Part shown: positions 31,465-64,000 of the stretch, one piece after another | How the letters are laid out: each line of letters starts with the position of its first letter | How positions within the stretch are numbered: the first letter of the stretch is position 1 | Origin: Ilex aquifolium | Lineage: Eukaryota > Streptophyta > Magnoliopsida > Aquifoliales > Aquifoliaceae | Reading direction: 5' to 3' | DNA: 64,000 bases | Assembly (NCBI GenBank): GCA_951799425.1 | Contig: OX637395.1 | Location: forward strand, 9,010,951-9,074,950 | Made by a program: the position numbers and the translations under genes | Notes under the pieces: generated by a model | Told to the model about the DNA's origin: nothing | The model's database searches: none | What the model saw: the letters and a program-made list of their open reading frames with translations, nothing else

Positions 31465-32768
31465 ATGGAAACAAAGAAGAAGAGGAAGGCTGAGGGAAAG
31501 CGTCGACCAAAAGTGGATAACACTTGTTACGGTGGAATTGGGAAAATGAAGAATAAACAGGTTGGTGATCAATCCAATTGTCCAAAACCTCCGATTGTGG
31601 TACATTCCTCCAGTTGTCCAAATCCTCTCATCCAAAACAAAATAAAAATGTTGATCACTCCTCATATGTAACCATTCAAGTAAATCGTTTCTTCAATAGA
31701 AATAGTGAAGAGCTTTATCATAATCGGTTTTGTAATAGGCCTGTGTTACTAGAGCGTGGTGCTCAGTTGGATAAGATGACAAATGTGAACTGTGCTGTCA
31801 TTTTTGGTTTGCAACATTGGAATTCTATAGTTGAAATAGATAAGAAGGATAAAGCTTATGATGGATTAGTGAGGATATTTTATACAAATATGAATGACGT
31901 TGACAAGGAAGATTTGAAGTTTAAATCTTATATTAGAAATGTACATTTTGAAATGAACCCGGATTTGATTTCAAAGATATTGAAGGTTCCTTCACCCTTT
32001 ATTGTTGAGAATACTGTTACATACCCATACAAGAATCTCAGTGATAAGCCTACCACCAGGATGTTACAACAGAACTTTATGGTAGACCTTTTACTTTGAA
32101 AATAGGCACATTTTATCAAAGATATCTCACTAACATTATAGGGTTTTAAACCGTATAGTGGGATGTAATATTAATCCGAAGGGACACAATTCTGAATTTG
32201 GACTTGATAGAGCTCATCTCTTTTATGCCATTGGGAAGGGGATAAGTATAGATCTCCCTTGTCTAATATTTAATGAAATTGTTTCGGCGTTTGACCTTGA
32301 AGATAAGCGAAAAAGTCTCCCATTCCCCATCTTAATTTCAAAGATCATGATACATTCTGGAGTTGTCATTCTCCCAACGGACACTTATAAGTCCCCTATG
32401 AGTCTATTTGGTGAATGCACATTAAAAAAGAGTTTAGGGCAAACCGATGCATATGCTCCAGATGATTATGAAGAAGATCCACTACAGACAGATGGAACAA
32501 GTACTTCTGCAGGGGGGATAACAATATGGTTGTACAAATTCTTAAACAGATTTTGGCAAACCAAGAGGAGTTGCAACAAGAAATGATGGAGTCTCTAGAG
32601 CAGCTACGTGAAGACACAAAAGAGTCTCTCAAGCAGCTCCGTGGCGACACCAAAGAGTCTCTCAGGTAGCTCGAGGAAGACACCAAAGAGTCTCTAAAGC
32701 AGTTGGAGATTAAATTGTTAACTCAAAAAAATAATGAGAAGTACTCTTTTTTAGTTGTTGGATTGTAG
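31465..32768 (+). pseudogene. Plant transposon-associated protein (decayed)
   Basis: Pieces in two frames read METKKKRKAEGKRRP (basic start), then LQHWNSIVEIDKKDKAYDG and VRIFYTNM...YIRNVHFEMNPD, then VGCNINPKGHN...DLPCLIFNEI, the layout of the putative plant transposon protein domain common in Mutator-type and gag-pol-associated plant genes. A C-terminal coiled-coil repeat (EDTKESLKQL) follows. Breaks: a frameshift near 31640, another near 32095-32135, and TAG at 32667 inside the third coiled-coil repeat. It lies tail to tail with the MULE transposase. Function of the family unknown. Confidence 0.65.
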
Positions 32769-33048: not shown

Positions 33049-35447
33049 TCAAAAAGGAGTCCAATGGTCTTCATCTTCATATGTTGGGAAGGGTTGTTGT
33101 GATCCACCAGGCTGTGAGAATGACATCTCGAGCACTGGTTCTTGTGATGCATGAGGAAAATAATGGAGATTGTGTGGTTGGTGCAACTCATCCAGATGTG
33201 ATAACGTCATGTTCTCATATGGATCATTCAAATGGGGCGTAAGTAGTGGATATTTTCTAACAGTATGTCCGATACCCCTACATTTACTACACCTTCGTGG
33301 GGTAATTGAAATGTTCTTTCGCACCCGTCCTGGATTTCCCTTAGTCTTCACAAATTTTGGGTCACCCACGCCAAATTTTCCATTTTTCACATTCATGTTG
33401 AAATGGGATATTTGAGACTCATCGTAACCTCTAGCTGCTGACTCATGGGCTTGTACAGCTGCTGACTCGTGATGGGCTTGTAGAGCAGACGTTTGTTGAT
33501 GCACCATATGTCTCACGTCGTTTGTTTTTGGCATTGACTGTGTAGTAGCACATTTTTTTGCACATAGACATGAGTCCAACATATCTTCTAGAAATTGATG
33601 GGAAACTCAAGGTATGCAACACATCATTTGTTTGATAATCGGATTTTGCAGTAATTGTCCACCTTTTCATCACACTGCTAGGAGGAAACTCTTTGAGGTG
33701 CTCACACTTCATGATGGCAATCGTATGAGAGCAGGGAAGGCCAACAGATTCAAATTTTATGCAATTACATTTAAACGTTTGAATGCCAGGATAATATTGA
33801 ACAATCCACCTAGATTCAGGTTGTGTGAATCGGGACTAGTAGTAACTTCGATGCGTTCCGCTCTCAATTTTATCCACTACAAAAAATAGACCTTCATCCT
33901 TCAATTGATCACGAACTTTGAAGAATATTTTTCTGGTATATGTCTTGGAGGCTTTCTCCTCTAAGCATTTAAGTGCTGTTGTGAGCACTGGCTCGGAGTG
34001 TTCTGACTCGTAGTCATCATTGGCCTCGGTCTCTCTGATTCGTGCCAAGCCCCTATCGTACTGCCTAACAAACTCAAATAGTCTTTGACGTGTTTTAGGA
34101 AGCGATTTAGGGATGCATTCATACTTTCAGACCGTTGCGTACTTGTTTGTCCCGCAAAAAATATCCCGCGTAAGTATACTTCGGCCCATTTGAATCTCTC
34201 TGCATAAACTTCCGCAATCCAATTATTAGTCTCCAGTCCAAATGATTCAACCATTGATTTTTATAAATCTTCAAATTCTTCCGGTGTACATCGAGTGCAC
34301 ATACATCTCTTGAATGCTTGAACAAAATTTTCAGAATTTATATTTGTGAAAGCATTTCGGGCCAAATGCCACCTACATTAGCGGTGTGTTGCCTATGGAA
34401 AGATTATTTCTATTGCAGCCGTTATTGCTCTATCCCCATCTGTAATAATGGAGATCGGCATCTTATTATCCATTGCATGAAGAAAAGTAGATAGCACCCA
34501 CACATATGTTTCCACAGTCTCATCTGATAGCAATGCACAACCAAATATAGTTGTAGCATTGTGGTGATTGACACCTGCAAATATCACAAATGGTTTCTTA
34601 TAAACATTCATTCGATATGTAGTATCAAACGTTAGTACGTCACCAAAACACTTGTAGTCCATTCGGGAAGTCGAATCTGCCCAAAACAAACAATTTAGTG
34701 AATTGTCTTCAGTGACGTTATACTTGAAATATAATAGAGGGTTCAACTCTTCCTTGGCGCTCAAGTATGCCAATGCGCTCTCCGCATCACCGTTCCTCAT
34801 TTCTTCTCTACGTTGGGATGCTACATCATTGTACAAATCCTTTGTGGTAAATCCAACATTTTGATATCCTCCCGATTGTTGCAACATGAAATCTCTAATT
34901 GACTTGTTCGTATACCAACATTACGCAAGGATACAACCTGTGCTCTGTCAGGACTCTTAACACCCCTATGTGATCGGAGAAATGGCACGCCACGTGGTGG
35001 AACCAATGGATGGTTATGCTCCTTAACAAAATCCATTACAATCCATTTTCCCGTCTTCCTATTGTACTTCACACGCAATGTTGCAAGGCATCCAACCCTT
35101 ATTAAACCTCTTAGTTCCCTTACTCGTTCGACGTGGTCCGCATTTTTTGCTGACCGATACCCTTCTCTTGAACAAACCCACCTTCTTGAAATTGTCATGT
35201 GGTTCTTGTCACACTTTAGGTCATCTTTTCGAATGCTAAATCCCGCATAACTTCCATAGGTGTTGTAAAATTCTCCTGCCTCCTCGTGTGAATCAAACGT
35301 CATTTCAAAAACTTCTTCGGATTTTAACTCATCCATCATTTTTTGCTGCATGTTCTCATTTTCAACATCATGTAACATGTCCTCCGTTACATCTTCATTT
35401 AGGTCTCTAATAACGTGCTTTCTTTTTTGTAAATATGTTGACGACAT
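33049..35447 (-). pseudogene. FAR1/FRS-type Mutator transposase (decayed)
   Basis: Minus-strand fragments in order: FAR1-type DNA-binding zinc domain (35300-34950; the GEFYNTYGSYAGFSIRK motif), MULE transposase core (34887-33960) with FDTTYRMN (first Asp), SIITDGDRAI (second Asp) and QRSESMNASLNRF (Glu), a SWIM finger CNC...GLPCSH (about 33790-33715), and a C-terminal zinc knuckle CSKCRGIGHTVRKY whose last Cys is Tyr. Breaks: a frameshift near 34885, TAG at 34395-34393 (expected Gln), a stop a few codons later, and frame changes near 34255, 33850 and 33580. It is too damaged to be active. It is divergent from the ULP1-like gene. Confidence 0.85.
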
Positions 35448-47606: not shown

Positions 47607-47645
47607 TGTGATAAATATAAAAGTTTATCCAAGTTTGGGTGTTAT
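47607..47645 (+). repeat. Left piece of element B 5' LTR
   Basis: Element A inserted after gttat at 47641-47645. The sequence immediately left of it should be the start of the LTR whose remainder resumes at 61735. A TG at 47607 is a possible LTR start, giving an LTR of about 1.0 kb. The start cannot be confirmed because the other LTR of element B is outside the window. Confidence 0.35.
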
Positions 47646-49526
47646 TGATTAACCCTAATTAATGCAAAATGTAATTAAATTAAAAGGTCAATTGTGTAAT
47701 TAAATAAAGTTAAACTAGTCAAAATAAATCTAATTAGGGTTAATGTGTGAATTAAGGATAATGCATTGAATGTTGTTCTTTTCAGGTTTTTATGCGTCAA
47801 AACGACGGGAGCCAATTATCAAAGCATGGAGAGCAACTTATCAAAGCATAGGGTGTAAATTATTAAAGCTCAAAACAAAGGGAGATCAAAGTGTAAATCA
47901 AGATCTTCTTGATATTTGTAATTAAATATCTTTTAGGATAAATATCTTTTAGGATATTTGTAATTAAATATCTTTTAGGATAAATATCTTTTAGGATATT
48001 TGTAATTAAATATCTTTTAGGATAAATATCTTTTAGGATATTTGTAATTAAATATCTTTTAGGATAAATATCTTTTAGGATATTTGTAATTAAATATATT
48101 TTAGGATAAATATCTTTTAGGATATTTGTAATTTGGATGCCTATAAATACCCCCCTTGGGGGCTTGTAATGGGCATCCTTCTCTTGTTTCATTTTTCTTG
48201 TAAAGAACATTTCTTCCTAGTGGAAAACACTCCAAAGGTCTTGAATCTTTTTCTTGAATCATCTTTCAAGTATTATTGCTTTATTTACTTTCTTGAGTTA
48301 TTGTTTTCTTTTTATTAGATCTTGGTTGTGAATTAAACACCAAGAAGTTATTGTTTTCTTTTATGTTTTAGATCTTGGTTGTGAATTAAACACCAAGAAG
48401 TTATTGTTTTCTTTTATGTTTTAGATCTTGGTTGTGAATTAAACACCAAGAAGTTATTGTTTTCTTTTATGTTTTTATTATATCTTGGTTGTGGATTAAA
48501 CACCAAGAAGTTGTTGTTTTCTTTTTATTAGATCTTGGTTGTGAATTAAACACCAAGAAGTTGTTGTTTTCTTTTATGTATTATCATCTCTTGGTTGTGG
48601 ATTAAACACCAAGTATTTATTGCTTTCTTTTAATTTAAGTATTGTTTTCTTTTACTTCCATTGTTGGAGCTTCCTTCTTCCCCTTAGAGGAGTGAAACTC
48701 TTCCACTTTTCTAGAGCTTTACCAAAGCCGTGAAGGGTGGAACGTGATTCACTCATTCTTTGTCGAAGATCGGCTCCTTGTTTAGCTATTTTACTTTAAA
48801 GCATTTCACTTTTAGTGCTTGAGCATTTTACTTTGTAACACCTTTTGGGGATGAGTACCATTCATCATTCTAGCTTTACCATAGCTATGAAGGGTGAGTA
48901 GTCCTCATTCACTCTTTGGGAAGGGATGATAGATATGTAAAAGATTAATCCGGACATTATGTTTGTGTATCACATTTATGCTTAAATGTTCTATACTCCA
49001 CTTGATTTTTGGGTGATTGAATGCACCTAGCAAAGTAAAGGTACTTTGTATAATCAACGGATCTTTCTATGATAAATGGATGACTCCTACATGGAAAGAT
49101 CCATTGATTCAAGGCAAGTACCCTAACTAACTCTTCATGACAAACTTTCAATGTCCACAATTATTGCACTTCATTCCTATCTTCCGATTAATTTGCCGTT
49201 GACACGGGAGTTAATTGAGTTATAAAGCATAAACATAATGCACCGGATAATCAACTACATATTCTGATTCCCGAACCAAAGAGTGTTTGTTACATTTAAT
49301 CATCTTATATTTTGTCTAGAAAAATACCCATTGGAAAGAATTTTACATTCTATCCAAAACTTCCCACAACTTCAAAATCATAATATTTCCAGTTACAAGT
49401 CTTTCTCACTATTTACTTCAAAGAACACCAACCATAGTTCCCTGAGGATTCGACTCTGGACTCAAACCAGATTATTACTACAACTTGACCGCCTGCACTT
49501 GGGTGTACACATTTCGGATCAAGTCA
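47646..49526 (+). repeat. 5' LTR of element A
   Basis: Begins TGATTAACCC and ends TCAAGTCA. Contains a 42-bp tandem array (about 47913-48133, five copies of 'tatttgtaattaaatatctt...'), then TATAAATA, then a 53-bp tandem array (48317-48612, six copies with the hairpin-capable CTTGGTTGTG...AAACACCAAG). Short frames inside the LTR are not genes. Confidence 0.95.
48142..48149 (+). promoter_or_regulatory. LTR TATA box of element A
   Basis: TATAAATA follows the 42-bp array and precedes a C-run, a good core promoter position at the U3/R border. The same motif is in the 3' LTR at 60345-60352. Confidence 0.7.
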
Positions 49527-49532
49527 AGTTTT

Positions 49533-49550
49533 TGGCGCCGTTGCCGGGGA
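49533..49550 (+). other. Primer-binding site of element A (tRNA-Asp type)
   Basis: TGGCGCCGTTGCCGGGGA six bases after the 5' LTR is the known Athila-type site complementary to the 3' end of tRNA-Asp. Confidence 0.9.
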
Positions 49551-49651: not shown

Positions 49652-52600
49652 ATGACTGACACCAATCGCCTCTTTCAAAATTTGCCTGCTGAATCTTCTG
49701 GGTCTGTAAATCAACTTGAACCACTTTCACCCAAATCAGAAGCCGATTCTTGTAACTTCAATATGGCAAATATTGACAGGCAGGGTGAAGATCATGTGAG
49801 AGAGGGGGAAGTACCCAACATTCGAACATTGCGAGATTACTTACATCCCACAAGGAATAGTGTCCCATCTTGTTTTATTTTTCCGGAGAATGCACCCCAC
49901 TTCACTGTGAAGCCGGGGACAGTGCATTTATTGCCCGTGTTTCAGGGATTGGATACAGAAAATCCGTATCTGCATATCAAAGACTTCGAAGAAGTGTGTG
50001 GAACATTTCAAGACAATTCTGAATTGACAAAAATGAAATTGTTTTCTTTCTCTTTGAGGGATAAAGCCAAACAATGGTTACATTCTTTAAAATCTCTTTC
50101 AATCCCTAATTGGCAGGCTCTACAGAATGAATTTTTCAGAAAATTCTTTCCTCTGCACCGCACTAATGCACTCAAAAGACAAATCATGAATTTTTCGATC
50201 AAAGAAGGGGAAACTTTTTATCAAAGCTGGGAGAGATTCAAAGATCTTCTCCAATCTTGTCCACACCATGCTTTTGAAGATTGGACTTTGGTAGGATTTT
50301 TCTATGACTCCTTGCCCACTAGGTTACGACAGTTTGTCGAAATGATGGCTCAAGGAGAGTTCATGGGAAAAAGTCCGGAGGAGGCATTCAATTTTTTTGA
50401 TACCATATCTGACAGTTCTCAAATGTGGGACTCAGCCTCTCCTACCACTGTAGAAGCCAAACCACCTACTTTCCAAGGGGGTAAGTATGTCTTGAGAGAA
50501 GATGATGATCTTAGAGCAAAAATGTCCACTTTGTCTCGAAAGCTTGAAGCTTTAGAGATGAAAAAGGTCCATCAAGTTGATGTTGTCCCTCCCACAGAAC
50601 AAGTGTGTGGGATTTGTGCGCTAACAGGGCATCCTACTGGGGAATGTCCGACCATTCCGGCATTCAAAGAAGTTTTGTTGGAACAAACAAATGCCATTTC
50701 CAATTTCAACAAGCCTTACTCCAACCCATACTCTGAAACATACAATCCAGGGTGGCGGAACCACCCAAATTTCAGTTGGAGAAACACACAACCAACCCCC
50801 ATGAATCAGCAACAAAGTCCACAACAACCACCTCAAGGACCTCCACAATATCCTCATCCACAAGGGCCACCACAACCACCTCAAGGACCTCCACAATATC
50901 CTCCATATCAACCACCACACAAAAGGAACCTTGAAGATACATTGAATCAATTCATGCAAACCCAAATGAGCTATAACAATAGTTCTACTCAGGCTTTTAT
51001 TGATTTCAAGGCCCAGACCACACAATCTTTTGAGGATCTCAAAGGCCACATTCAAAAGCTGACCCAGTCCATGAGCACACATGAGAAGGGAAAATTTCCT
51101 GCCCAACCAAAGCCTCCACAAGGCCAATTTCAGGTGGGAAATCCATCAACTATGGAAACTCCACAAGACCAAGCCAAAACTGTCACCACATTGAGAAGTG
51201 GCAAAAAGATTGACAAGTCCATCAGAAACATGCTGATTCCAGACCCAAAACCAGTCTCAATTCCAGCCAACCCATTAAGTGAGCCAGAACTTGAAAAAAA
51301 AAATGACTGTGATCCCATGATTGAACAAGAACCAGAGCCATCAAGGGAAGAAGAACCCTCGTGTTCTATTCCTGCTCCTTTCCCTCATAGACTCAAGAGC
51401 ATACAGAAAGCAAACAATCAGTCTGAAATTTACGAGCTTTTCAAGCAAGTAAAAATCAACATCCCACTTCTGGATGCAATCCAACAGGTTCCAGCTTATG
51501 CCAAGTTTCTAAAAGACTTGTGCACAGTCAAAAGAAGCCAAAATGTTCAAAAAAGAGCCTTCTTCACAGAACAAGCCAGTGCCCTACTTCAACAAAAAAT
51601 TCCTTCAAAGTGCGAAGATCCAGGATGCCCCACTGTGTCATGTGTCATTGGAAATTTCAAAATTGAGCAAGCATTGTTAGACCTTGGAGCTAGTGTCAAC
51701 TTGCTTCCTTTCTCTGTCTACCAGCAGTTGGGTTTAGGTGAACTGAAACCCACTTGCACCACACTCCAATTGGCAGATAGATCTGTAAAAATTCCTAGGG
51801 GTATTGTTGAAGATGTACTTGTTCAAGTGGATAATTTTGTCTTCCCTGTAGACTTCATTGTTCTAGATACTCATCCAGAAGTTCATTCAGAAACTCCAAT
51901 TCCTGTCATTCTTGGTCGACCTTTTCTAGCAACCTCCAATGCACTAATCAATTGCAGGAATGGTATTATGAAATTGACTTTTGGGGATATGACTCTCGAA
52001 ATGAACGTCTTTGACATTGCAAAACACCCAAGAGAGTACGAGGAGGTAGGAGAAATAAATTTCATTGAGTCATTAATACAAGCACATCTGAATGACTCAT
52101 TCTGTGAGGATCTTAGTGAATCAACTTTGTCAAAATCTGACTCATCTGACTCTCTGGAACAAAACTCCATTGAGTGTCCTACCTTCAATGTGGGGACATG
52201 GGCTCCTAAATTTGAAGAAATTTCATCAAGTGGTACAAAACCACTATCTTCAAGTGACAGGCCACCAAAGCCTGAACTGAAACCGCTCCCATCTGATCTC
52301 AAGTATGCATTTTTAGGTGAGGATAAATCTTACCCAGTGGTAATTTCTTCAAAAATCACAGACTTGCAAGAAGCTCAATTAATTGAAGTTCTTAAAAGTC
52401 ACAAAAGCACCATTGGGTGGACCATCGCTGATTTGAAAGGTATAAGCCCGTTAATTTGTAATCATGCCATATACCTTGAAGAGGACTCAAAACCCTCTCG
52501 TCAAATGCAGCGACGATTGAATCCTCACATGAAAGAGGTTGTGAGACTGGAAGTGCTCAAACTCCTGGATGCAGGGATAATTTTTCCTATCTCCGATAGC

Positions 52601-55252
52601 AAATGGGTTAGTCCAACCCAAGTTGTACCAAAGAAATCTGGAGTCACAGTAGTCAAAAATGATGCAAATGAACTCGTGCCAACACGAGTCGTCACAGGAT
52701 GGCGAATGTGCATTGACTATCGAAAACTCAATCTGGTGACTAGAAAAGACCATTTTCCTCTTCCCTTCCTTGACCAAGTCCTCGAGAGAATAGCAGGCCA
52801 TGAATTTTACTGTTTCCTGGATGGGTATTCCGGATACAATCAAATTGAGATAGCTCTGAATGACCAAGAAAAGACCACATTCACATGTCCATTTGGCACC
52901 TTTGCATTCAAAAGGATGCCATTCGGACTTTGTAACGCTCCTGCAACATTTCAAAGATGTATGCTGAGCTTGTTCAGTGACATGGTCGAAAATTTTTTGG
53001 AAATTTTCATGGATGATTTCTCGGTATATGGTGACTCATTTGATTTGTGTCTAGCTAACCTAGAAAAAGTTTTGATGAGATGCAAAGAGGCAAATCTGGT
53101 GCTTAACTGGGAGAAATGTCATTTCATGGTGAATCAAGGCATTGTCTTGGGTCACATTGTGTCGTCTGAAGGCATGAAAGTTGATAAAGCAAAAATTGAT
53201 TTGATAAGGAATCTTCCTGCTCCTAGGGTTGTAAAGGATGTTCGATCATTCTTAGGTCATGCAGGATTCTACAGAAGGTTCATAAAAGACTTCAGCACCA
53301 TAGCAAAACCTATGTGTCATCTTTTGAGTCAGGATGTCATTTTTGACTGGAATGAAGCGTGCCAAAAATCCTTTGACAAACTCAAAGGCATGTTAATTTC
53401 TGCCCCAATAATGCAACCTCCTGACTGGACTCTACCCTTTGAATTGATGTGTGATGCTAGTGACTATGCTGTAGGTGCTGTTTTGGGACAAAGAAAAGAT
53501 AAGAAGCCACATGTGATTTACTATGCAAGTAAAACTTTAAATGATGCCCAAATGAATTACTCAACAACTGAAAAAGAATTACTTGCTGTAGTATTTGCAT
53601 TGGAAAAATTTCGATCTTATCTGGTTGGTTCTTCTGTTACTGTATTTACTGACCATGCAGCACTGAAATTTTTGCTTACAAAAAAAGATGCCAAACCAAG
53701 GCTCTTGAGATGGATCCTTTTGCTCCAAGAATTTGATTTAGTCATTAAGGACAAAAAGGGTGTGGAAAATGTGGTGGCAGATCATCTGTCAAGATTAACT
53801 TATGAATTTCATGAGGATGGACTGCCAATCAATGAAAAATTCCCCGATGAACAACTATTCAGGATTGATGAAACCCCATGGTACGCTGATATTGCTAATT
53901 TCCTTGCTACCGGAACACTTCCTCCATTTTTCACTCCCATGGACAAAAAGAAGTTTCTGAGGGAGGTCCGCAATTTCTTTTGGGAAGATCCCTACGTATT
54001 CAAGTACTGTAAGGATCAGATCATAAGACGTTGCATCCCCGCTCAGGAAAGTAGACAGGTAATTACATTTTGTCATTCAGAAGCATGCGGTGGTCATTTT
54101 TCATCTCGAAAAACCGCTGCAAAAATCTTGCAGTGTGGATTTTACTGGCCCACACTTTTCCACGATGTCCATGCTTTTTGCGTAACTTGCGATAGATGTC
54201 AAAGGTTGGGAAACATTTCAAAAAGAAACATGATGCCCTTAAACCCAATTTTGGTGATCGAAATTTTTGACTGTTGGGGTATCGATTTTATGGGACCATT
54301 TCCCCCCTCCTTTGGCTATCTATACATTTTAGTAGCCGTAGACTATGTATCCAAATGGGTTGAAGCAATTCCATGCCGAAATAATGATCATCAAACAGTG
54401 ATCAAGTTTTTAAAAGAAAATATTTTATCTCGGTTTGGAATTCCAAAATCCATTATAAGTGATGGGGGTTCTCATTTTTGCAATCGTCCCTTCTGGAATT
54501 TAATGAAAAAATACTTGATTTTTCACAAAATTGCAACCCCTTATCATCCACAGACCAGTGGACAAGCTGAGTTAGCTAATCGGGAGATCAAATTAATTTT
54601 GGAAAAAACGGTGAACCCAGATCGCAAAGATTGGTCATTAAGACTAACTGATGCGCTCTAGGCATACCGAACTGCTTTTAAAACAATTTTGGGCATGTCT
54701 CCCTATCGATTAGTCTATGGAAAGCCATGTCACTTGCCTGTGGAATTGGAACATAGGGCATACTGGGCTATTAAAGCAATGAATTTTGACTTAGACAAGG
54801 CTGGACTGTCACGGAAGCTTCAGATTAATGAATTGGAGGAATTGAGAAATGAAGCATATGAAAATGCTAAGATTGCAAAAACCAGGATGAAAATTTTTCA
54901 TGACAAGAACATAGTGCGAAAATCTTTTGAACCTGATCAAAAGGTTCTACTTTTCAATTCGAGACTTCGCCTATTTCCTGGTAAGTTGAAATCAAGATGG
55001 ACTGGACCATACATTGTTAAAAAGGTATTTGAACATGGGGCAGTGGAAGTGGAGAACCCATCAAACGGTAACATTTTTACCGTCAATGGTCAGAGATTAA
55101 AACCCTTTGTGGAGAATTTTGTCCAAAATGTGGAGACTATTTTTTTAATGGATCCAGAAAGTATCTCCGGATATCACTCCGGAGATTACGCTTGCCGACA
55201 CAAAAAAGGGTCGGGTCAGTCAGACACCCGACACGATGGACTGCCTTTATAA
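49652..55252 (+). CDS. Athila gag-pol polyprotein, one in-frame amber codon
   Basis: One frame of 1866 codons interrupted only by TAG at 54659-54661. Order: gag capsid (about residues 60-270), CCHC knuckle [14 protein letters not shown] (about 319), Pro/Gln-rich linker, aspartic protease [10 protein letters not shown] (about 677), reverse transcriptase with [11 protein letters not shown] and the FMDD active site (about 1119-1122), RNase H ([11 protein letters not shown] ... [10 protein letters not shown]), integrase HHCC zinc domain and D,D,E core ([29 protein letters not shown]), then the C-terminal integrase domain to 55252. The amber sits in the integrase where AYRT follows and Trp is expected. 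No frameshift was seen. A gag start at ATG 49652 fits the leader position after the PBS. With the amber codon the copy is probably not autonomous. Confidence 0.93.
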
Positions 55253-55254
55253 GG
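55246..55254 (+). promoter_or_regulatory. TATA-like motif at start of accessory module 1
   Basis: TTTATAAGG overlaps the stop codon of pol and is followed by a pyrimidine-rich tract that could serve as a leader. The counterpart in module 2 is TTTATTAGG at 56718-56726. Promoter role is inferred from conservation and position. Confidence 0.35.
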
Positions 55255-55414
55255 CTCCCATCGCTTTTTTTTTTTTTTTTTTTTTTCTTTTTTTTCTTTT
55301 CCTCACCACACCTTTACTCTTTTCTTTTCTTTTTCTTCTTCTGCTTCTTCTCTTTTCTTCTTCTTCTCCACTGCATCTGGTCTTCTGTACCACGATCCAA
55401 CCCATAACAGTACC

Positions 55415-55561
55415 ATGTCTGCATTTTTCGATGACCCTATCCTCCTTCTCATGATCTACATTTGTTTGTATTATTTACTTATGGCTGTTCTTCTTCGGGC
55501 CGCACTGATGATCAAGGGTTTTTGTCCCAATGAAAACCCAGACCACCCCAAAGATGCTTAA
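55415..55561 (+). CDS. Small membrane peptide 1 (48 aa) in element A
   Basis: Starts MSAFFDDPILL, has one hydrophobic helix (about residues 9-31), then a basic-to-acidic tail ending NPDHPKDA. The second module encodes a homologue at 56877-57008 sharing the DDP motif, ICLY in the helix and NPD.P near the end. Conservation of these features across diverged DNA is the main evidence that it is coding. A type I or III single-pass topology is inferred. No family recognised. Expression may need splicing or an internal promoter. Confidence 0.6.
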   Translation: MSAFFDDPILLLMIYICLYYLLMAVLLRAALMIKGFCPNENPDHPKDA

Positions 55562-55675
55562 TCTCTGTTTTTTTTTTGGTATAGGTCATCGGCGATTGAA
55601 CAGATCTCCACAGTTAACTGCGTATTCAAGCTCTACAAACCGAAAAACTCGAAACATTGGGGACAATGTTCAGTC

Positions 55676-55689
55676 TAGGTTGGGGGGTG
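55676..55689 (+). other. Internal copy of the polypurine tract
   Basis: The 14 bases taggttggggggtg are identical to the tract directly before the 3' LTR (59835-59848). An internal PPT could prime a second plus strand; role inferred. Confidence 0.6.
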
Positions 55690-55883
55690 AGATCTACAGT
55701 TTACAATAGTTGATCTGCAGTTTACAGTAGTTGATCTGCGCAGGTTGAACCCGTAAAATTTTCTGTAAATTTTTTTTGTTTTTATTGTTGTATCTGTTTA
55801 TATTATGTACCTTGTATTAATGATAATATCTGTGGGTCAGTTTTGATCGTCTTTGTGACTGGAAGACGTAAAAAAACCAGATA

Positions 55884-56315
55884 ATGGGTCATAGAGTATC
55901 AATCATGGATGTAAATCTTTTTTGGTTTAGTCTAGGAGTCCTACGTACTTTTCCATCTGATGTACATACCATGATCATGAGAAAAGCAAGATTAGTAAGG
56001 AAGGCTGAAATCAAAGAAAAACAAGCGAAACCCCTCTGTGGCCGAAGCAGTTATTCTAAACGTCGTCGTGCTACACGACTTGGTGCCTGTAAACAGTGTG
56101 GCAGATACTTTCATGAGAAAAGATACAACAAATGTTCTGAACCAATTTCCGGTCGCGCAACCGATCGATTAAACTGGATAAAACATGGGCTGAGTAAGGA
56201 TTACCCTGATACGCCATGCTATTCCGGTACTGTGCTTAACCGATTTGTGAGAGAGGAAGTTGGGAGAGTTACTAGTTGTCCATTTTACACAGATACGGAG
56301 GGGGAATCGGATTGA
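55884..56315 (+). CDS. Basic zinc-finger protein 1 (143 aa) in element A
   Basis: Not a standard Athila gene. Seen: an N-terminal helix LFWFSLGVLR and FPSDVH, a charged helix (IMRKARLVRKAEIKEKQ), a basic stretch GRSSYSKRRRATRLG, a C-X2-C-X4-H-X6-C finger (C.QCGRYFH......C), then SEPISGRATDRLNWI, GLSKDYPDTP and an acidic end. It is about 70% identical to the ORF at 57548-57973 with no gap over 123 residues from the second Met-Asp, and many codon differences are silent, suggesting selection on protein. The order basic stretch then Cys finger resembles Carla_C4 nucleic-acid-binding proteins of carlaviruses, which can suppress RNA silencing; this link is recollection, not a search. A nucleic-acid-binding role is likely; biological role unknown. 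Confidence 0.75.
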   Translation: MGHRVSIMDVNLFWFSLGVLRTFPSDVHTMIMRKARLVRKAEIKEKQAKPLCGRSSYSKRRRATRLGACKQCGRYFHEKRYNKCSEPISGRATDRLNWIKHGLSKDYPDTPCYSGTVLNRFVREEVGRVTSCPFYTDTEGESD

Positions 56316-56876
56316 CCTCTGTGGAAAAGTGTACTGAGGTTGGGAATGAGAGCTGAAGGTCCGAGTCTGTAAATTTTATTTTATTTTATTTTTTTATGTT
56401 CTGTACAAACTCTTTTGCATATCACTTTCTTTTGTTGTATAATTTTGTTGTTCCTAGTTTCAGATATTGGTGCATGAGTCAAAGCTCAAGTGCGAGGTGT
56501 TCTCTTACCCTACTCATTTTTATTACTATGCACCATTATTGCGTCTGCTGCGATTATTGCGCCTGCCGACACTGCCGAAAGTAAAGTTAGAAAAAAAAAA
56601 GGGGGGGCCTCCCACTGCCTTTCTTCTTCTTTTTTTTCTTTTCTTCTGCCTGCCAGCTCCTGCCGACACTTTCTTATATTAAAAAAAAAAAAAAAAAAAA
56701 AAAATCTGAGGAATGCCTTTATTAGGCCTTCCACCTTTTTCTTTTTCTTCCACCATCACCGGTGTTGGTTCCCCCCTTTTCTCTTTCCCTTATCTTCTTC
56801 TCTTTCTTTTTCTTCTCTTCTTCTTCGTCGTCGTTCTTTCTGTTCTCTGTAAAAACAACTCACCCCCTGTAAATCC

Positions 56877-57008
56877 ATGACCATATACGCCGACGATCCA
56901 GTCTTTTGTTTAATAATTTGTCTTATATGTTTGTATGTGTACCTGGGTGCTCTTTGTGTTCTCACACTTAGGATGAGGAGTTTCCAGAGAAACCCAGATA
57001 TTCCTTGA
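56877..57008 (+). CDS. Small membrane peptide 2 (43 aa) in element A
   Basis: Starts MTIYADDPVF, one hydrophobic Cys-rich helix (about residues 9-30, IICLICLYVYLGALCVLTL), then a basic LRMRSFQR and NPDIP end. Homologous to the peptide at 55415-55561. Too short for most ORF scans. A membrane-anchored partner for the neighbouring zinc-finger protein is possible but unproven. Confidence 0.6.
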   Translation: MTIYADDPVFCLIICLICLYVYLGALCVLTLRMRSFQRNPDIP

Positions 57009-57547
57009 GTTGAGTAATTGTTGTATTTTGTTTGTAGGTTTCGGCAGATGAACAGATCTGTACCTTACAACCTTATCTCCACTAGCCCACTAGTGCTAGT
57101 GTTGTAAGTATTGCTTGTTTGTAATTTCATTTATATATATATTTGAAATTTGATATCTACAGCTTGTGATTCTCATGGCTATTTGTCTTTATAAGATTCC
57201 TTGTGAATTTGCTATGCCCTCCAATGACTATGTTGTAATTGCTGTTACAGTAAGATCTGATAATTTGCCAAATAATCCTCCTCAATCCTATGTATTCTGG
57301 GTTTATTCCTTCTTCGTTAATTTGTTTGTTTTATCCTAAATCTTCTTCCTTCCGCTTGTATTTTGGTATACTTTCTCTAGTTTCGTATTTGTAATTTTAG
57401 TTTTAGATCTGAAAAAAAAAAAAAAAAAAAAAAAATTTATTTTTTTTGGATCGCGTTTTTTTTAGTATTTGTACCTGTATTTCATGATTACATCGGATGC
57501 AGCTTCAACTGTCTTTGTGACTGGCAGACGTTAAAGAACCAGATAGA

Positions 57548-57973
57548 ATGTCTTTAGTCTTAGCAAGCATGGATCCTAAACTTTTTTGGTTTAGTCTAGG
57601 AGTTCTACGCATTTTCCCATCTGATGTGCATGCTGTGATAATGAGAAAAGCAAGGGATGTGAGAAAAATTGAGATCCGAGAGAAACAACAACAACCATTG
57701 TGTGGCAGAAGCAATTTTGCTAAACATCGTCGTTCCAAACGACTGGGTGCTTGTTACCATTGTGGCAGGATATTTCATATGAAAAAACATAATCAGTGTT
57801 CTGAACCAATTTCGGGTCGTGCAACCGATCGATTAAACTGGATAGTGTATGGGCTGAGTAAGGATTATCCTGACACACCATCTTATGCCAGTCCGGGACT
57901 TACAAGTTATGTGCGACAAGAAGTTGGAAGGGTCACTGATAATGACATAGATCCAAGCGATGACTCGGATTAG
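57548..57973 (+). CDS. Basic zinc-finger protein 2 (141 aa) in element A
   Basis: Paralogue of the protein at 55884-56315 with the same start context (seven residues before the aligned Met-Asp), the same C-X2-C-X4-H-X6-C spacing (CYHCGRIFHMKKHNQC), the basic stretch GRSNFAKHRRSKRLG and the SEPISGRATDRLNWI block. The acidic tail DIDPSDDSD differs. It has no stops or frameshifts. Retention of two open diverged copies argues that each is useful to the element. Confidence 0.75.
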   Translation: MSLVLASMDPKLFWFSLGVLRIFPSDVHAVIMRKARDVRKIEIREKQQQPLCGRSNFAKHRRSKRLGACYHCGRIFHMKKHNQCSEPISGRATDRLNWIVYGLSKDYPDTPSYASPGLTSYVRQEVGRVTDNDIDPSDDSD

Positions 57974-58086
57974 ATTTTGACTATAAAAACAAAGCTGTGG
58001 AAAAATGTGTTTTGGAATGAAGGTTAAGGGTCTGAACTCTTTTGTAAAATATTTTTGTACAAAGTCTGGTTGTTGAAATAAAAATA

Positions 58087-58350
58087 TGGGCCGAGTAAGG
58101 AACGTCCCGAACTACCAACTAACAGTGTAGGTAGGGATTTGATCCTGAGACGCCATAAATTTCCAAGTTCAATTTGTGCATTTTATCTTCTTTCAATTCT
58201 CATAGATAAATGAGTATGTGGGCGGAGTAAGGAATGTCCTAAAATGCCAACCTGTAGTGTGGGTAGGGACTTATCCTGAGACGCCATAGTTTTTCAAGTT
58301 TAATTGGTGCATCTAGTCTTCTTTCAATTTTCATAGATAAATGAGTATGT
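58087..58350 (+). repeat. Two 132-bp repeats resembling zinc-finger ORF remnants
   Basis: Copies start 'tgggccgagtaaggaacg' (58087) and 'tgggcggagtaaggaatg' (58219). They resemble the DNA coding for GLSKDYPDTP in the two ORFs ('gggctgagtaaggatta', 'cctgatacgcca'). They may be leftovers of further module copies. Confidence 0.5.
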
Positions 58351-59833
58351 TTATAATTTTGAATTTTATTTTTCTTGTTTTCTAAAAAAAAAAAATAAAA
58401 AAAAAAAAAAAAAAAAAAAAACCACTTCCTTGAAAAATGGTATTTTCTCTATGCTTAAATGTCAAATGTATATTGCTATTTGTTATTCTTAAGGTAAAGA
58501 ATGACCAGACTCAAAAATAGAATCGGTATATAACCGACATTCCATGAAAAACCTGACATTACCAGTGGAGATGATAAAGAATACCATGGTAAGTTTTGAG
58601 CCTTATCATACTTTTGAGAGATAATTAACATTTATTCAAGTAAGGTCTTTCATTCTCTATTTTTGAATAATCTCATTAAATTTGCTTTGATTGACGCAAC
58701 TAAGGTAATCTGTTGACATATCCCCAAGAAATCTGTTCATACGACACATACATGTTCACATACTTGAGAAAGGATTTTAGGCCATCTTTGATTTGATATT
58801 GAGCCTTAGCCATTTTTTCTGCAAAATTATTTCCCTAGTCAGCCATGTTTGAGCCCTCAATGTATGATTTCTTCTTTGATAAACCCAAATATTTACCAAG
58901 CCACAAGAAAACATACTGGACACACCATTGCTATCTAATTTTCTTGCACACTCTTATTAATTAATATGACACAGAAATGCAAAGAAATGGGAAAACTGTG
59001 GAGATTACTTTTCGATGATAAGGAGAATCAATGAAAAAAAAAAAAAAAAAGAAATCATTTCTGGGCAAAATGTCGAAAAGCTAGAAAGAAGTGTGCTACA
59101 TTACAGAATGAAAAGATAGCTTTTGAAAACCTCTGACGTCATTTCATTAGCCACTGACCTCTGGCCACGCTACAACCTATGAAAAGCCCTAATTGATCTC
59201 AAGTCTGTTACATGTGTGTGTTGTTAATCAAAATTGGGGTATGGTAAATAGTATTTCTTTAAATTGCATCAATATTCTTTCATGAGATTATGCCAAACAT
59301 GATTAGTTTGTTTCCGTAAACTTCACTTCCTTCCTAATTGTGCATGTGATTTTTCGATTGGCCACCTTCTGATCACATGCCCCGTGAGAGACAAGTCACT
59401 ATAATCGGAGTGAATTTTTGCTGAGAGCATTCTACGAGAGGTTTGTGAAATCGAAGCTATCCATGGAAGGTAGTAAAGTGGAGTGTTTGTTATATAACAA
59501 TTCTTGTTGCTAGAATGATCATTCTTACTACATAGGGAATTTCAAATACCAATATAACAAGTGTTTATTTTTGCGTATATTACGTACCAATGACAGAGAA
59601 GTGTTCTATGTTCTAAAAAAAAAAATTTCAACTATCATGGTGCTAATGCATATACACATTTTTTTTCACAATGGAGTTTGTAGGTAGCTTCACTGAAAAC
59701 CTTCACGAGACAAAACTCGTCCACTAGGAATCACCTAGGGGTTTAACGGCTTATTGCATATGCTAAATGCAATCGTGTTATCTACGAAAGTGATTTTGTT
59801 ATGCTGTTATTTATTACTAGGGACTAGTAATGT
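58351..59833. other. 3' non-coding region of element A
   Basis: Contains two A-rich tracts (58384-58422, 59036-59050) and otherwise complex sequence. No gene of recognisable type. Confidence 0.45.
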
Positions 59834-59834
59834 T

Positions 59835-59848
59835 TAGGTTGGGGGGTG
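59835..59848 (+). other. Polypurine tract of element A
   Basis: taggttggggggtg lies directly before the 3' LTR, the expected place for plus-strand priming. Confidence 0.85.
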
Positions 59849-61729
59849 TGATTAACCCTAATTAATGCAAAATGTAATTAAATTAAAAGGTCAATTGTGT
59901 AATTAAATAAAGTTAAACTAGTCAAAATAAATCTAATTAGGGTTAATGTGTGAATTAAGGATAATGCATTGAATGTTGTTCTTTTCAGGTTTTTATGCGT
60001 CAAAACGACGGGAGCCAATTATCAAAGCATGGAGAGCAACTTATCAAAGCATAGGGTGTAAATTATTAAAGCTCAAAACAAAGGGAGATCAAAGTGTAAA
60101 TCAAGATCTTCTTGATATTTGTAATTAAATATCTTTTAGGATAAATATCTTTTAGGATATTTGTAATTAAATATCTTTTAGGATAAATATCTTTTAGGAT
60201 ATTTGTAATTAAATATCTTTTAGGATAAATATCTTTTAGGATATTTGTAATTAAATATCTTTTAGGATAAATATCTTTTAGGATATTTGTAATTAAATAT
60301 ATTTTAGGATAAATATATTTTAGGATATTTGTAATTTGGATGCCTATAAATACCCCCCTTGGGGGCTTGTAATGGGCATCCTTCTCTTGTTTCATTTTTC
60401 TTGTAAAGAACATTTCTTCCTAGTGGAAAACACTCCAAAGGTCTTGAATCTTTTTCTTGAATCATCTTTCAAGTATTATTGCTTTATTTACTTTCTTGAG
60501 TTATTGTTTTCTTTTTATTAGATCTTGGTTGTGAATTAAACACCAAGAAGTTATTGTTTTCTTTTATGTTTTAGATCTTGGTTGTGAATTAAACACCAAG
60601 AAGTTATTGTTTTCTTTTATGTTTTAGATCTTGGTTGTGAATTAAACACCAAGAAGTTATTGTTTTCTTTTATGTTTTTATTATATCTTGGTTGTGGATT
60701 AAACACCAAGAAGTTGTTGTTTTCTTTTTATTAGATCTTGGTTGTGAATTAAACACCAAGAAGTTGTTGTTTTCTTTTATGTATTATCATCTCTTGGTTG
60801 TGGATTAAACACCAAGTATTTATTGCTTTCTTTTAATTTAAGTATTGTTTTCTTTTACTTCCATTGTTGGAGCTTCCTTCTTCCCCTTAGAGGAGTGAAA
60901 CTCTTCCACTTTTCTAGAGCTTTACCAAAGCCGTGAAGGGTGGAACGTGATTCACTCATTCTTTGTCGAAGATCGGCTCCTTGTTTAGCTATTTTACTTT
61001 AAAGCATTTCACTTTTAGTGCTTGAGCATTTTACTTTGTAACACCTTTTGGGGATGAGTACCATTCATCATTCTAGCTTTACCATAGCTATGAAGGGTGA
61101 GTAGTCCTCATTCACTCTTTGGGAAGGGATGATAGATATGTAAAAGATTAATCCGGACATTATGTTTGTGTATCACATTTATGCTTAAATGTTCTATACT
61201 CCACTTGATTTTTGGGTGATTGAATGCACCTAGCAAAGTAAAGGTACTTTGTATAATCAACGGATCTTTCTATGATAAATGGATGACTCCTACATGGAAA
61301 GATCCATTGATTCAAGGCAAGTACCCTAACTAACTCTTCATGACAAACTTTCAATGTCCACAATTATTGCACTTCATTCCTATCTTCCGATTAATTTGCC
61401 GTTAGCACGGGAGTTAATTGAGTTATAAAGCATAAACATAATGCACCGGATAATCAACTACATATTCTGATTCCCGAACCAAAGAGTGTTTGTTACATTT
61501 AATCATCTTATATTTTGTCTAGAAAAATACCCATTGGAAAGAATTTTACATTCTATCCAAAACTTCCCACAACTTCAAAATCATAATATTTCCAGTTACA
61601 AGTCTTTCTCACTATTTACTTCAAAGAACACCAACCATAGTTCCCTGAGGATTCGACTCTGGACTCAAACCAGATTATTACTACAACTTGACCGCCTGCA
61701 CTTGGGTGTACACATTTCGGATCAAGTCA
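59849..61729 (+). repeat. 3' LTR of element A
   Basis: Same length as the 5' LTR. Differences noticed: one base in the last 42-bp repeat region (60319 side) and 'gttagcacggg' versus 'gttgacacggg' near 61403. Followed by the TSD gttat. Confidence 0.95.
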
Positions 61730-61734
61730 GTTAT

Positions 61735-62710
61735 GCTATCAAATGTTGATTTGTGTTAATTTGCAGGACAAAAGCGTAAATTTTGGAGTTAAATTATGGG
61801 AAGACGAAGCATAGCTCAAAGGAAAACACACTGGATCACGCGTCCGGACGGAAGATGAACACGCGTCCGGACGCGAGTGGCAGAAAGGCGATCAGAAGAA
61901 GAACAAACTCACTGGAAGTTGCGTCCGGACGAAATAAGGACACGCGTGTCGAAGATCTGCTGATGCTAGACTTAGAATTTTGACGAGAATCAATCTCTTT
62001 TCTGGGAGGTTATTAATACAAATTGAAGACTTTGTAAGGGGGATCTTTTTTTCATCTTTTTGCTCACGACTTCTTGAGTGTATTTTTGCAATTCTTTTAT
62101 GGCCGGCTAAAAGGTTAAGCTAGGGCTAGGGAAAACCTCTCAGTGAAGTACGGTATTTTTATAGACTTTGCACTTAATGATTTATGATATTGTGTTAATC
62201 TAATTTCTAATCTTATAGAAAAGTTTTTGTTCTGTAAAAACTCCTGAGTTGTTGTGCCATGTACATCGATTGCTTGAGTTTCCCTGCGAATAAATAACTG
62301 GTTATTCCACGCTTGAAGTGTTAACATTGTTTCATAAAATATTATGATTGATTTATTATTCAGGTTTCTGAATAATCTTTTGGTTATAACTTTTGGTTTT
62401 CTTACTTGATTTGTTATCTGGATTAACCGACATTTAATTCCTGTTTCAAATCAAGCCTTGAGTCTTTAATTATTACCGTATGACATTGAGAGGGAGTACC
62501 TGATGCTCTAGTAATTTTATTACTGCTTTAATTATTAAATTAAATTGTTTTCAATCAACAACTCTTCAAACAAATGTTCTCCATTTTAATTTAGTAGTGT
62601 TTGTGTGATTGTTGACTTGTTCCAATTCCCTGTGGATTCGACCTCGGGCTTCCGAGAATATATTACTCTGCTCAACCTACGCTTGGGTTTACACTTTCAA
62701 AGTTGAAGCA
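61735..62710 (+). repeat. Element B 5' LTR, right part
   Basis: Resumes after element A and its TSD and ends GTTGAAGCA just before a PBS. Contains three ACGCGTCCGGACG-type CG palindromes (61838-61935) and the 'ccctgtggattcgacctcgg' block (62630) matching the end region of many Athila LTRs and of element A's own LTR (49440). Confidence 0.85.
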
Positions 62711-62716
62711 AGTTTT

Positions 62717-62734
62717 TGGCGCCGTTGCCGGGGA
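62717..62734 (+). other. Primer-binding site of element B
   Basis: TGGCGCCGTTGCCGGGGA, identical to that of element A. Confidence 0.9.
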
Positions 62735-63011
62735 ATTGAAAAAAAACAAGGAGCCATCACATCTTTCGAGGTGTTCGGTATTTGCGATTCGTCGGAGAAC
62801 CGATAACTTCGTTCCAATTTCTTTTATTTGTATTTTCTGGCAATTTATTTACTTTTCGTTATTTATTTAGATTTCTATTTTATTTGTTTTGTTTAGTTGT
62901 TTTATGAGCTCTTGACATCGTGATTTGAGTGGACGTTTAATAAGAGAGGAGTTAGATACTCTGTTTGGAAATCTATTTGATTCGTCTGATTTAAATTTTT
63001 CTGTGCACACA

Positions 63012-64000
63012 ATGACTGTTAATTCTAACATTAATAGGCAGAATGAACTTCCCCCACATGAGGACCATATTGATAGAGTAAGCAATCATGATGAGAATGA
63101 TGTGGATAATTTGAATGTTAATCAAGGTAGGACTTTGCGTGAATATCTACAACCTGTATTACTCACTGAACCGTCATGCATAATTTTTCCATTGAATGCC
63201 ATTAATTTTGTTTTCAAACCTGGCATGATTCAATTACTTCCAAAATTCCTGGGTATAGGTGAAGAAAACCCATATTTGCACATCAGAGAATTTGGGGATG
63301 TATGTGCTATGTTTCATGACCAGAATGTTGCAATGGATATAGTCAGGCTGAAGTTATTTCCTTTTTCATTAAAGGAGAAAGCTAAAACTTGGTTATATTC
63401 GTTGAGATCTAGGTCTATAGGAACATGGCAAGAGATGCATAAACAATTTTTAAAGAAATTTTTTCCCACACATCGCACAAACTCTTTGAAAAGACAAATC
63501 ATGAATTTTTCTCAAAAGGAGTCTGAAAATTTTTATCAAAGTTGGGAAAGATTGAAAGAACTTCTTGCATCTTGTCCACATCATGGTTATGAAAGCTGGC
63601 GCATAATAAGTTTCTTTTATGAGGGTTTAGGCCCACATCTGCATCAATTTATTGAGATGATGTGTAATGGTGATTTTATGAATAAGGAACCAGATGATGC
63701 TTTTGACTATTTAGACCAATTAGCCGAGAATGCACAATCTTGGAATACTACATCCCAGGAACCCTCTAGAGGTAAAACTGCACAATCATCATCATCTGGT
63801 GGGGGTAAGTATCAGTTGAAGGAGGAATATGACATTGGGGCTAGGATTGCCATCTTAGCTAGGAGGGTAGAAGCTATGGAATATAAAAGGGTTAATGAGG
63901 TTGACACAATACCTGTTGAGGAAGTCTGTAGTTTTTGTGACACCCCCGGACACCCAGTTAAACAGTGTCCAACATTGCCTATGTTAAAAGAGGTTTTGCA
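63012..64000 (+). CDS. Athila gag of element B (runs off the window)
   Basis: Open from ATG 63012 to the window end (329 codons), homologous to element A gag: TLREYLQP, KPGMIQLLPKFLGIG, ENPYLHIREF, RQIMNFSQKESENFYQSWERLKEL, and the knuckle CSFCDTPGHPVKQC near the end. An earlier ATG at 62904 is in the same frame but is followed by TGA at 62913; the frame between reads like protein (SGRLIREELDTLFGNL), so the ancestral start may have been there. Protein identity to element A gag is moderate, so A and B are different families. Confidence 0.9.
   Translation, partial: MTVNSNINRQNELPPHEDHIDRVSNHDENDVDNLNVNQGRTLREYLQPVLLTEPSCIIFPLNAINFVFKPGMIQLLPKFLGIGEENPYLHIREFGDVCAMFHDQNVAMDIVRLKLFPFSLKEKAKTWLYSLRSRSIGTWQEMHKQFLKKFFPTHRTNSLKRQIMNFSQKESENFYQSWERLKELLASCPHHGYESWRIISFFYEGLGPHLHQFIEMMCNGDFMNKEPDDAFDYLDQLAENAQSWNTTSQEPSRGKTAQSSSSGGGKYQLKEEYDIGARIAILARRVEAMEYKRVNEVDTIPVEEVCSFCDTPGHPVKQCPTLPMLKEVL

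Follow-up and report, generated by a model that had tools for sequence, protein, structure and literature searches.

A virus-type NABP gene, present twice, between pol and the 3' LTR of an Athila-like retrotransposon of Ilex aquifolium

In a 64,000-nucleotide stretch of Ilex aquifolium DNA (the window), an Athila-like element carries two modules between pol and the 3' LTR, each consisting of a TATA-like block, a CT-rich leader, a membrane peptide, a pyrimidine tract ending in AG, a conserved GTCTTTGTGACTGG block and a zinc-finger open reading frame (ORF). On balance, we interpret this cassette as the region of a third gene in a Ty3/gypsy lineage of Athila-like type, encoding a nucleic-acid-binding protein (NABP) that is homologous to proteins of filamentous plant RNA viruses and that would dampen silencing. 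Our best reading is that the third gene was duplicated in a young, abundant family, in which two diverged paralogues lie side by side, compared to one gene in older relatives. While the NABP family is already known from plant RNA viruses, a gene of this type does not appear to have been reported from an LTR retrotransposon.

The element is bounded by a GTTAT target-site duplication (47641-47645 and 61730-61734), and all of its features listed here lie on the plus strand. Its 5' LTR (1881 bp, TG...CA; 47646..49526) and 3' LTR (1881 bp; 59849..61729) differ by 3 substitutions; a PBS-like sequence, TGGCGCCGTTGCCGGGG, is found at 49533..49549 and the 3' polypurine tract at 59835..59848, whose sequence, TAGGTTGGGGGGTG, recurs inside module 1 (55676..55689). 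The gag-pol ORF (gag, protease, RT, RNase H and integrase core; 49652..54661) ends early, and the remaining integrase region follows in a different frame (54689..55252): pol is broken in the window copy, its frame stopping at 54661 and the integrase end resuming at 54689. The gag-PR-RT-RH-INT order is present together with LTRs, PBS and PPT, as in Athila elements, a combination that is common to other Ty3/gypsy lineages and so not Athila-specific. The name Athila-like is provisional and follows from this layout and from the PBS, which is of the TGGCGCC type that Athila elements have. A Pfam scan of five proteins turned up no env domain, and there is no env-like ORF, the longest ATG-started sense ORFs wholly inside 55252-59848 being the zinc-finger frames, so that placing the cassette "in place of env", as a sequence-only reading had done, is a positional statement. 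Repeats are also present at 58084-58350.

The two-module arrangement proposed in that reading proved to be real, with every named part found in its place in the 55236..58020 region. The TATA-like blocks of module 1 (GGACTGCCTTTATAAGGC, 55238..55255) and module 2 (GGAATGCCTTTATTAGGC, 56710..56727) agree at 16 of 18 bases, which was matched by none of 300 shuffles, and a similar block occurs in a related locus, L034. They are followed by the CT-rich leaders (55264..55400 and 56728..56850) and by the membrane peptides MP1 (48 aa, 55415..55561) and MP2 (43 aa, 56877..57008). Inspection by eye revealed a pyrimidine tract with AG, resembling a 3' splice site, at 55562..55584 and 57020..57037, and such a site behind pol or the membrane peptide in all six modules or loci viewed. 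The conserved GTCTTTGTGACTGG blocks (55848..55884 and 57510..57546) precede the zinc-finger ORFs, ZF1 (143 aa, 55884..56315) and ZF2 (141 aa, 57548..57973), which probably start at their respective Met8 codons (55905 and 57569). Between the modules, the zinc-finger ORFs are 66% identical and the membrane peptides share 14 of 43 aligned residues, whereas the spacers between peptide and zinc-finger ORF reach 52% identity across the 223 bases that align, with 212 gap columns besides, compared to 74% for the zinc-finger ORF from its Met8 onwards, bearing out the earlier claim that both protein pairs are conserved while the spacers diverged. Inspection by eye also led us to reject an in-frame splice that would fuse membrane peptide and zinc-finger protein, because an in-frame stop precedes ZF1 and the candidate phases differ between modules.

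The GTCTTTGTGACTGG block of module 1 could form an H-type pseudoknot, in which 45 of 45 cells pair across five sequences, compared to 22-44% when the pairing is slid; the same level was reached by 204 of 500 shuffles, because variation among the sequences is small. When the block is folded as a plain hairpin, one sequence out of four is more stable than its shuffles (z -1.66) and the other three are not, and we regard the pseudoknot as suggestive only. Seven Rfam matches, every one under the gathering score, were rejected; six of these, all on the minus strand, overlap one another in A-rich and CT-rich sequence (56589-56742), and the seventh lies at 55112-55268.

The viral affinity of the zinc-finger proteins is seen in profile searches. 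Against PF05515 (Viral_NABP; curated cut-off 23), ZF1 scores 42.9 bits (E 7e-11) and ZF2 48.4 bits (E 1.5e-12), and against PF01623 (Carla_C4; curated cut-off 20.9) they score 26.3 and 24.2 bits, while two reversed and two shuffled controls matched neither family. Both are families of plant filamentous RNA viruses and include silencing suppressors. Thirteen relatives were drawn from public contigs, and in alignment A3, which combines ZF1 and ZF2 with 11 relatives, 13 of 13 members match both profiles at E<=0.001. Among the rows having the region, the basic motif ahead of the finger is RRR in 11 of 14, HRR in two and CRR in one, followed by six residues and the first C of CX2C, which is replaced by Y in P0012. 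The finger itself reads CX2CX11C without a fourth Cys and does not conform to the carlavirus C4 pattern; His77, present in 14 of 14 rows having the finger region (P0014, without the region, was left out), suggests a CX2CX4HX6C arrangement. ZF1-type sequences make up one side of a branch with 100/100 support. An NCBIfam profile search returned nothing near any cut-off, and no zinc-finger relatives were found in the viral contigs (viral_contigs) and genome contigs (genome_contigs). The sequence-only reading knew of no such Athila gene set in the literature; this fits our literature search, which found no earlier report of such a retrotransposon gene set, but the reading overlooked the named viral relatives of the zinc-finger protein.

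In the window's genome (800 Mb), each of the 150 matches scored has an identity of 99% or more and no stop. Older relatives in this genome have a single zinc-finger gene, likewise placed behind pol, which in L034 is accompanied by a membrane peptide and in L017, L028 and L029 is not; the single genes of three of these loci score above the PF05515 cut-off (L028 40, L034 33.7 and, from a truncated frame, L017 26.0 bits); against PF01623, L028 and L034 reach 25.2 and 28.9 bits, and the truncated L017 frame falls under the cut-off at 18.4. L034 combines, mosaic-like, features of module 1 with others of module 2, and a simple tandem duplication is therefore not established. A dN/dS near 1 between the zinc-finger copies had been named beforehand as evidence against a functional cassette; the value obtained for ZF1 and ZF2 is 0.32 (bootstrap 0.18-0.49), leaving the proposal standing. 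All six pairs among ZF1, ZF2, L034 and L028 give 0.25-0.33, with bootstrap upper limits of at most 0.52, indicating purifying selection on the zinc-finger gene. As for the expectation that other family members retain the frames, all four ORFs are present at the 12 distinct sites examined, a set biased to intact copies because it was drawn from the top-ranking ZF1 matches, and in none of 48 ORF comparisons is there a stop or gap over the covered part, 5 of the 12 ZF2 comparisons being partial. The distinct codon variants at these young sites, 8 synonymous and 25 non-synonymous (25/33), give no hint of constraint; they resemble recent neutral mutations, and we do not use them as support.

Plants restrain retrotransposons largely through small-RNA silencing, against which RNA viruses are equipped with suppressors. 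By analogy with its viral relatives, the zinc-finger protein probably acts against RNA silencing. Its mRNAs would either start at the TATA-like blocks or be spliced at the pyrimidine-tract/AG site that follows pol, with the membrane peptide translated from an unspliced or internally started message; the protein could then enter the nucleus via its basic motif, bind RNA through the basic stretch and zinc finger, and dampen RNA-directed methylation of the element or silencing by small RNAs, in the way that its viral relatives act on antiviral silencing. Viral relatives, carlavirus ones included, suppress silencing (PMC3689765, PMC12172455), and in N. benthamiana the level of retrotransposon eccDNA rose under the viral suppressor P19 (PMC12786186, section 2.5). 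Counted against our preferred explanation are the lack of a fourth Cys, an AlphaFold model with pLDDT 44.6, a weak match to ribosomal eL43, the failure to find a peptide in L017, L028 and L029, the mostly non-synonymous variants in young copies and the mosaic L034. If true, it would tie the success of a transposon to a counter-defence gene of viral type, under purifying selection and doubled in a family that is young and abundant, and would suggest that RNA viruses and retroelements have exchanged genes. A bolder version, in which the lineage swapped a counter-defence (perhaps movement) block with RNA viruses and two separately expressed pairs of NABP and membrane protein disarm silencing, aiding a recent expansion to 150 or more near-identical copies, perhaps far more, is to be taken as tentative and rather doubtful.

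The viral-type NABP might instead serve the element itself, as an RNA chaperone, a packaging cofactor or a nuclear transactivator of the LTR or an internal TATA-like promoter, comparable to the accessory transactivators of complex retroviruses. The pairing of a basic motif with a finger whose CX2CX4HX6C spacing resembles a zinc knuckle is consistent with such a role, as is the retention of the TATA-like block between modules and its counterpart in L034; however, the gag frame has its own CX2CX4HX4C knuckle (seen by eye, with no knuckle match in this frame by Pfam at E<=0.001), which would make a second packaging finger unnecessary and lowers the odds of this role, and carlavirus relatives are described as silencing suppressors. 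We consider a purely element-serving function unlikely. The basic protein might also be specific to the element and unrelated to viral suppressors, having come to resemble viral NABPs by convergence or having arisen from a zinc-ribbon protein of the host. Weak phmmer matches of ZF1 to ribosomal eL43 (a PDB sequence) and eL37 (best E 0.0048), and a finger unlike the published carlavirus pattern, point in this direction, but the PF05515 alignment extends over ~110 residues, far past the finger, at E 1e-10 to 1e-12, and the profile is matched by every A3 member and by none of the controls; we consider such an origin improbable.

The membrane peptides bear on a further alternative, that peptide and NABP together constitute a movement-type block like the viral double gene block, spreading element RNA or particles to neighbouring cells. 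A nucleic-acid binder with a small membrane protein is the make-up described for viral movement modules (PMC7595835), and the peptides are distinctive: the MP1-MP2 alignment score of 64 was reached by none of 2000 shuffles, their hydropathy peaks (2.75 and 2.82) by none of 163 control ORFs of 35-60 aa from elsewhere in the window, and the L034 peptide is likewise strongly hydrophobic and similar beyond shuffles. Their dN/dS is 0.47 (bootstrap 0.19-1.26; 822 of 1000 replicates usable). Against a movement block, neither peptide has a Pfam family above cut-off, a large protein search, weak for queries of 43-48 aa, gave no candidate, and no peptide was found beside the zinc-finger genes of L017, L028 and L029, all of them older relatives, so that peptide and zinc-finger gene are not a fixed pair. 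We consider a movement function to have little likelihood.

Returning to a silencing-directed NABP as our preferred reading, the closest known systems are the cysteine-rich proteins of carlaviruses and mandariviruses (PF01623, PF05515), which share with ZF1 and ZF2 the profile, the small size, basic character and encoding towards the 3' end, and an RRR-type motif six residues before CX2C, as a report on a carlavirus protein also places it (PMC10141686). The comparison covered the profile, the basic motif and the finger; the proteins of the element also have an N-terminal FWFSLGVLR part. In contrast to the viral proteins, those of the element sit in an LTR retrotransposon as two paralogues and have an invariant His instead of the fourth Cys of the carlavirus finger, published as CX2CX9-12CX4C. 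Athila-type Ty3/gypsy elements with an env-like ORF have LTRs, the gag-pol domain order, a PBS of the TGGCGCC type and additional ORFs in sense orientation after pol and before the 3' LTR in common with our element, whose extra ORFs differ in being a virus-type NABP and a 43-48 aa membrane peptide arranged in two modules. Orchid Ty3/gypsy elements carry an AlkB RNA demethylase ORF, a kind of gene that, as the study notes, also occurs in Alphaflexiviridae and Betaflexiviridae; the study screened 121 angiosperm genomes, and neither NABP nor carlavirus is named in its main text (PMC9289625). These elements likewise stably keep an RNA-related extra gene, although the gene (2-ODD domain) and the lineage are different. 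Similarly, the double gene block of Tombusviridae (PMC7595835) joins two small genes for a nucleic-acid binder and a membrane protein, a likeness to the element's pair that lies in make-up.

In a Ty3/gypsy element whose 1881-bp LTRs (47646–49526 and 59849–61729) differ by 3 substitutions and whose target-site duplication is GTTAT, one gene module is present twice downstream of pol and before the 3′ LTR. We presumably deal with a member of the Athila lineage, a name based on the primer-binding site (PBS) and layout. The sequence-only reading had claimed two copies of one arrangement here, and this was confirmed, as all parts were found in both modules: a TATA-like block, a CT-rich leader, a membrane peptide (MP1, 48 aa, 55415–55561; MP2, 43 aa, 56877–57008), a pyrimidine tract with AG, the GTCTTTGTGACTGG block and a zinc-finger ORF (ZF1, 143 aa, 55884–56315; ZF2, 141 aa, 57548–57973). 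The TATA-like blocks have 16 of 18 bases in common (0 of 300 shuffles as good), and MP1 and MP2 are identical at 14 of 43 aligned residues, with a score reached by 0 of 2000 shuffles and a hydrophobicity matched by none of 163 control ORFs. Met8 is the likely ZF start, since it carries A at −3 and G at +4 in both modules and 9 of 11 ZF relatives begin at this position.

The pol of the window copy is interrupted, its long frame stopping at 54661 and the integrase end resuming in another frame (54661–54689), so that this copy is probably not autonomous, despite LTRs differing at only three sites. The 14-base polypurine tract (PPT) sequence TAGGTTGGGGGGTG next to the 3′ LTR (59835–59848) has a second copy within module 1 (55676–55689), and similar blocks lie 5′ of the ZF gene at two further loci of the genome, L017 and L034. 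Behind ZF2, two 136-bp copies that are 83% identical (58084–58350) start with sequence resembling a stretch of the ZF gene and are perhaps debris of further modules. The LTRs (47863–48210 and 60066–60413) contain tandem repeats with 42- and 53-base spacing and a repetitive 115-aa minus-strand ORF. At 62709–64000 a second element begins with a PBS-like sequence; its gag frame shares 48% identity with the gag of the first element, and the element runs off the window, which also holds fragments of a gene for a P-type cation ATPase (10481–15463; matches to E1-E2_ATPase and the C-terminal domain), a minus-strand ORF with a FAR1 DNA-binding domain (34821–35447) and a Transposase_32-like ORF scoring under the cut-off (31578–32099).

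Both ZF proteins matched, above the curated Pfam cut-offs, Viral_NABP (PF05515; E 7.3e-11 for ZF1, 1.5e-12 for ZF2), the nucleic-acid-binding protein (NABP) of plant filamentous RNA viruses, and Carla_C4 (PF01623; 7.3e-6 and 3.3e-5), while reversed (n=2) and shuffled (n=2) versions matched neither. A large protein search returned 11 relatives from a two-row query and 13 from a 13-row query, at 55–82% identity to ZF1, from source plants that could include the window's own. Precomputed annotation places both families on 12 of these 13 and neither on the truncated P0014, which, like P0010, lies on a contig of length 2941, probably the same one; in our own scan, all 13 members of the alignment of the window's two proteins with 11 relatives matched both at E≤0.001. 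A basic motif stands six residues ahead of CX2C, a distance also reported for a carlavirus protein (PMC10141686); unlike the published carlavirus C4 finger, these proteins lack the fourth Cys, and all 14 rows having the finger region carry His77. Judged from these matches and residues, the ZF protein is within the NABP profile family but outside the strict carlavirus C4 type.

We searched the window's genome (800 Mb in 103 contigs) with ZF1, obtaining 4098 first-look candidates; scoring covered 150 of these, including the one in the window, and all 150 were at least 99% identical and without stops. Other family members were found to keep the frames: at 12 of 12 distinct sites drawn from the best-match list (L005–L016; L001–L004 repeat L009–L012), MP1, ZF1, MP2 and ZF2 lie in order, and 48 of 48 ORF comparisons, including 5 of 12 for ZF2 that were partial, had no stop or gap over the covered part. 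The spacer between ZF1 and MP2 measures ~1.2–1.3 kb in L010, L012, L013, L014, L016 and L036, and ~0.56–0.6 kb in the window, L005, L009, L011, L015 and L026, a difference pointing to structural subfamilies inside this young family.

Older relatives were sought in twenty stretches of 10 kb, placed at round coordinates and largely in hit-rich contig regions, hence not at random; 6 of the twenty held an NABP-like gene. L026 and L036 belong to the window's family. L034, with a reverse transcriptase (RT) split between frames into two pieces (90% and 93%), carries a single module with TATA-like block, CT leader, 48-aa membrane peptide, polyPy-AG, PPT-like and GTCTTTGTGACTGG blocks and an open 136-aa ZF; a second module was not found in the 6 kb beyond, which align with the window's tail as far as a PPT with TGATTA behind it. 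L017, L028 and L029 carry a single ZF closely behind pol, open in L028 (134 aa), with two stops in L029 and broken in L017, and no membrane peptide was found in them. L030 (RT 67%) and L033 (RT 59–76%) gave no ZF match, and ZF decay there is possible.

In a 14-row tree, ZF1-type and ZF2-type sequences, groups defined from the alignment beforehand, fell on opposite sides of a single branch (100/100). With L034 and L028 included (16 rows), the eight ZF1-type rows again formed one side of a branch (100/100), as did the pair of P0013, a relative from a public contig, and L028 (100/99), while the six ZF2-type rows formed no resolved group. From this branch pattern, the split between the two types seems older than the separation of most relatives. 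L034 is a mosaic of both modules, because its single ZF gene is ZF1-type, its membrane peptide has a score of 80 with MP2, slightly above the 68 with MP1, and for the sequence between them the first match is module 2 and the second is module 1. The second module may have come from tandem duplication or from recombination between families, and it is also possible that a second module was lost.

The cassette had been read as probably functional until recently, and ZF dN/dS proved not to be near 1: across the six pairs of ZF1, ZF2, L034 and L028, NG86 gave 0.25, 0.25, 0.28, 0.28, 0.29 and 0.33, with bootstrap upper limits ≤0.52 in every pair (all 500 replicates usable in four pairs, 447 and 488 in the other two). 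At these values, a dS of 0.37–1.73 indicates long-term constraint on the ZF gene. For the membrane peptides, dN/dS was 0.47 with bootstrap limits on both sides of 1 (0.19–1.26), and pS was 0.58–0.63 and pN 0.39–0.43; their scores were reached by 0 of 2000 shuffles in each of 3 pairs. In the opposite direction to the ZF ratios, 25 of 33 distinct codon variants among young copies were non-synonymous, as expected of fresh neutral changes.

Beyond the gene observed, its position, homology and constraint, we infer how it might be expressed and act. By eye, a polyPy-AG site follows pol or the membrane peptide in all six modules or loci viewed, preceded in L017 by TACTAAC; this putative site could yield a spliced ZF message, as is reported of the barley Bagy2 env-like gene (PMC7264820), and the TATA-like blocks are candidate internal promoters. 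An H-type pseudoknot can form in 5 of 5 sequences of the conserved block 5′ of the ZF start (55848–55884 and 57510–57546), where one candidate pair varies (U-A, U-G, C-G), with the same values in 204 of 500 shuffles, covariation too little for proof. As to role, we favour counter-silencing, because viral relatives of the ZF proteins are reported as silencing suppressors (PMC3689765, PMC12172455) and a viral suppressor reportedly increased retrotransposon eccDNA in N. benthamiana (PMC12786186); by analogy, the ZF protein would act likewise for its element. Transactivation or chaperoning ranks second to counter-silencing, and a movement role third.

Among the titles and abstract beginnings listed, mostly outside subscription papers, there was no retrotransposon with a viral NABP, and an earlier mention is possible. 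A CDD-based screen covering the LTR elements of 121 angiosperm genomes listed 15 extra domains (PMC9289625), its main text containing neither the word NABP nor carlavirus. In the cucumber genome, a Betaflexiviridae-like replicase sequence is described near retrotransposon-like sequence (PMC3136472); unlike the ZF genes here, it is not described as a retrotransposon gene. LTR retrotransposons with extra ORFs are known, and what we rate as new is an extra ORF from a viral suppressor family.
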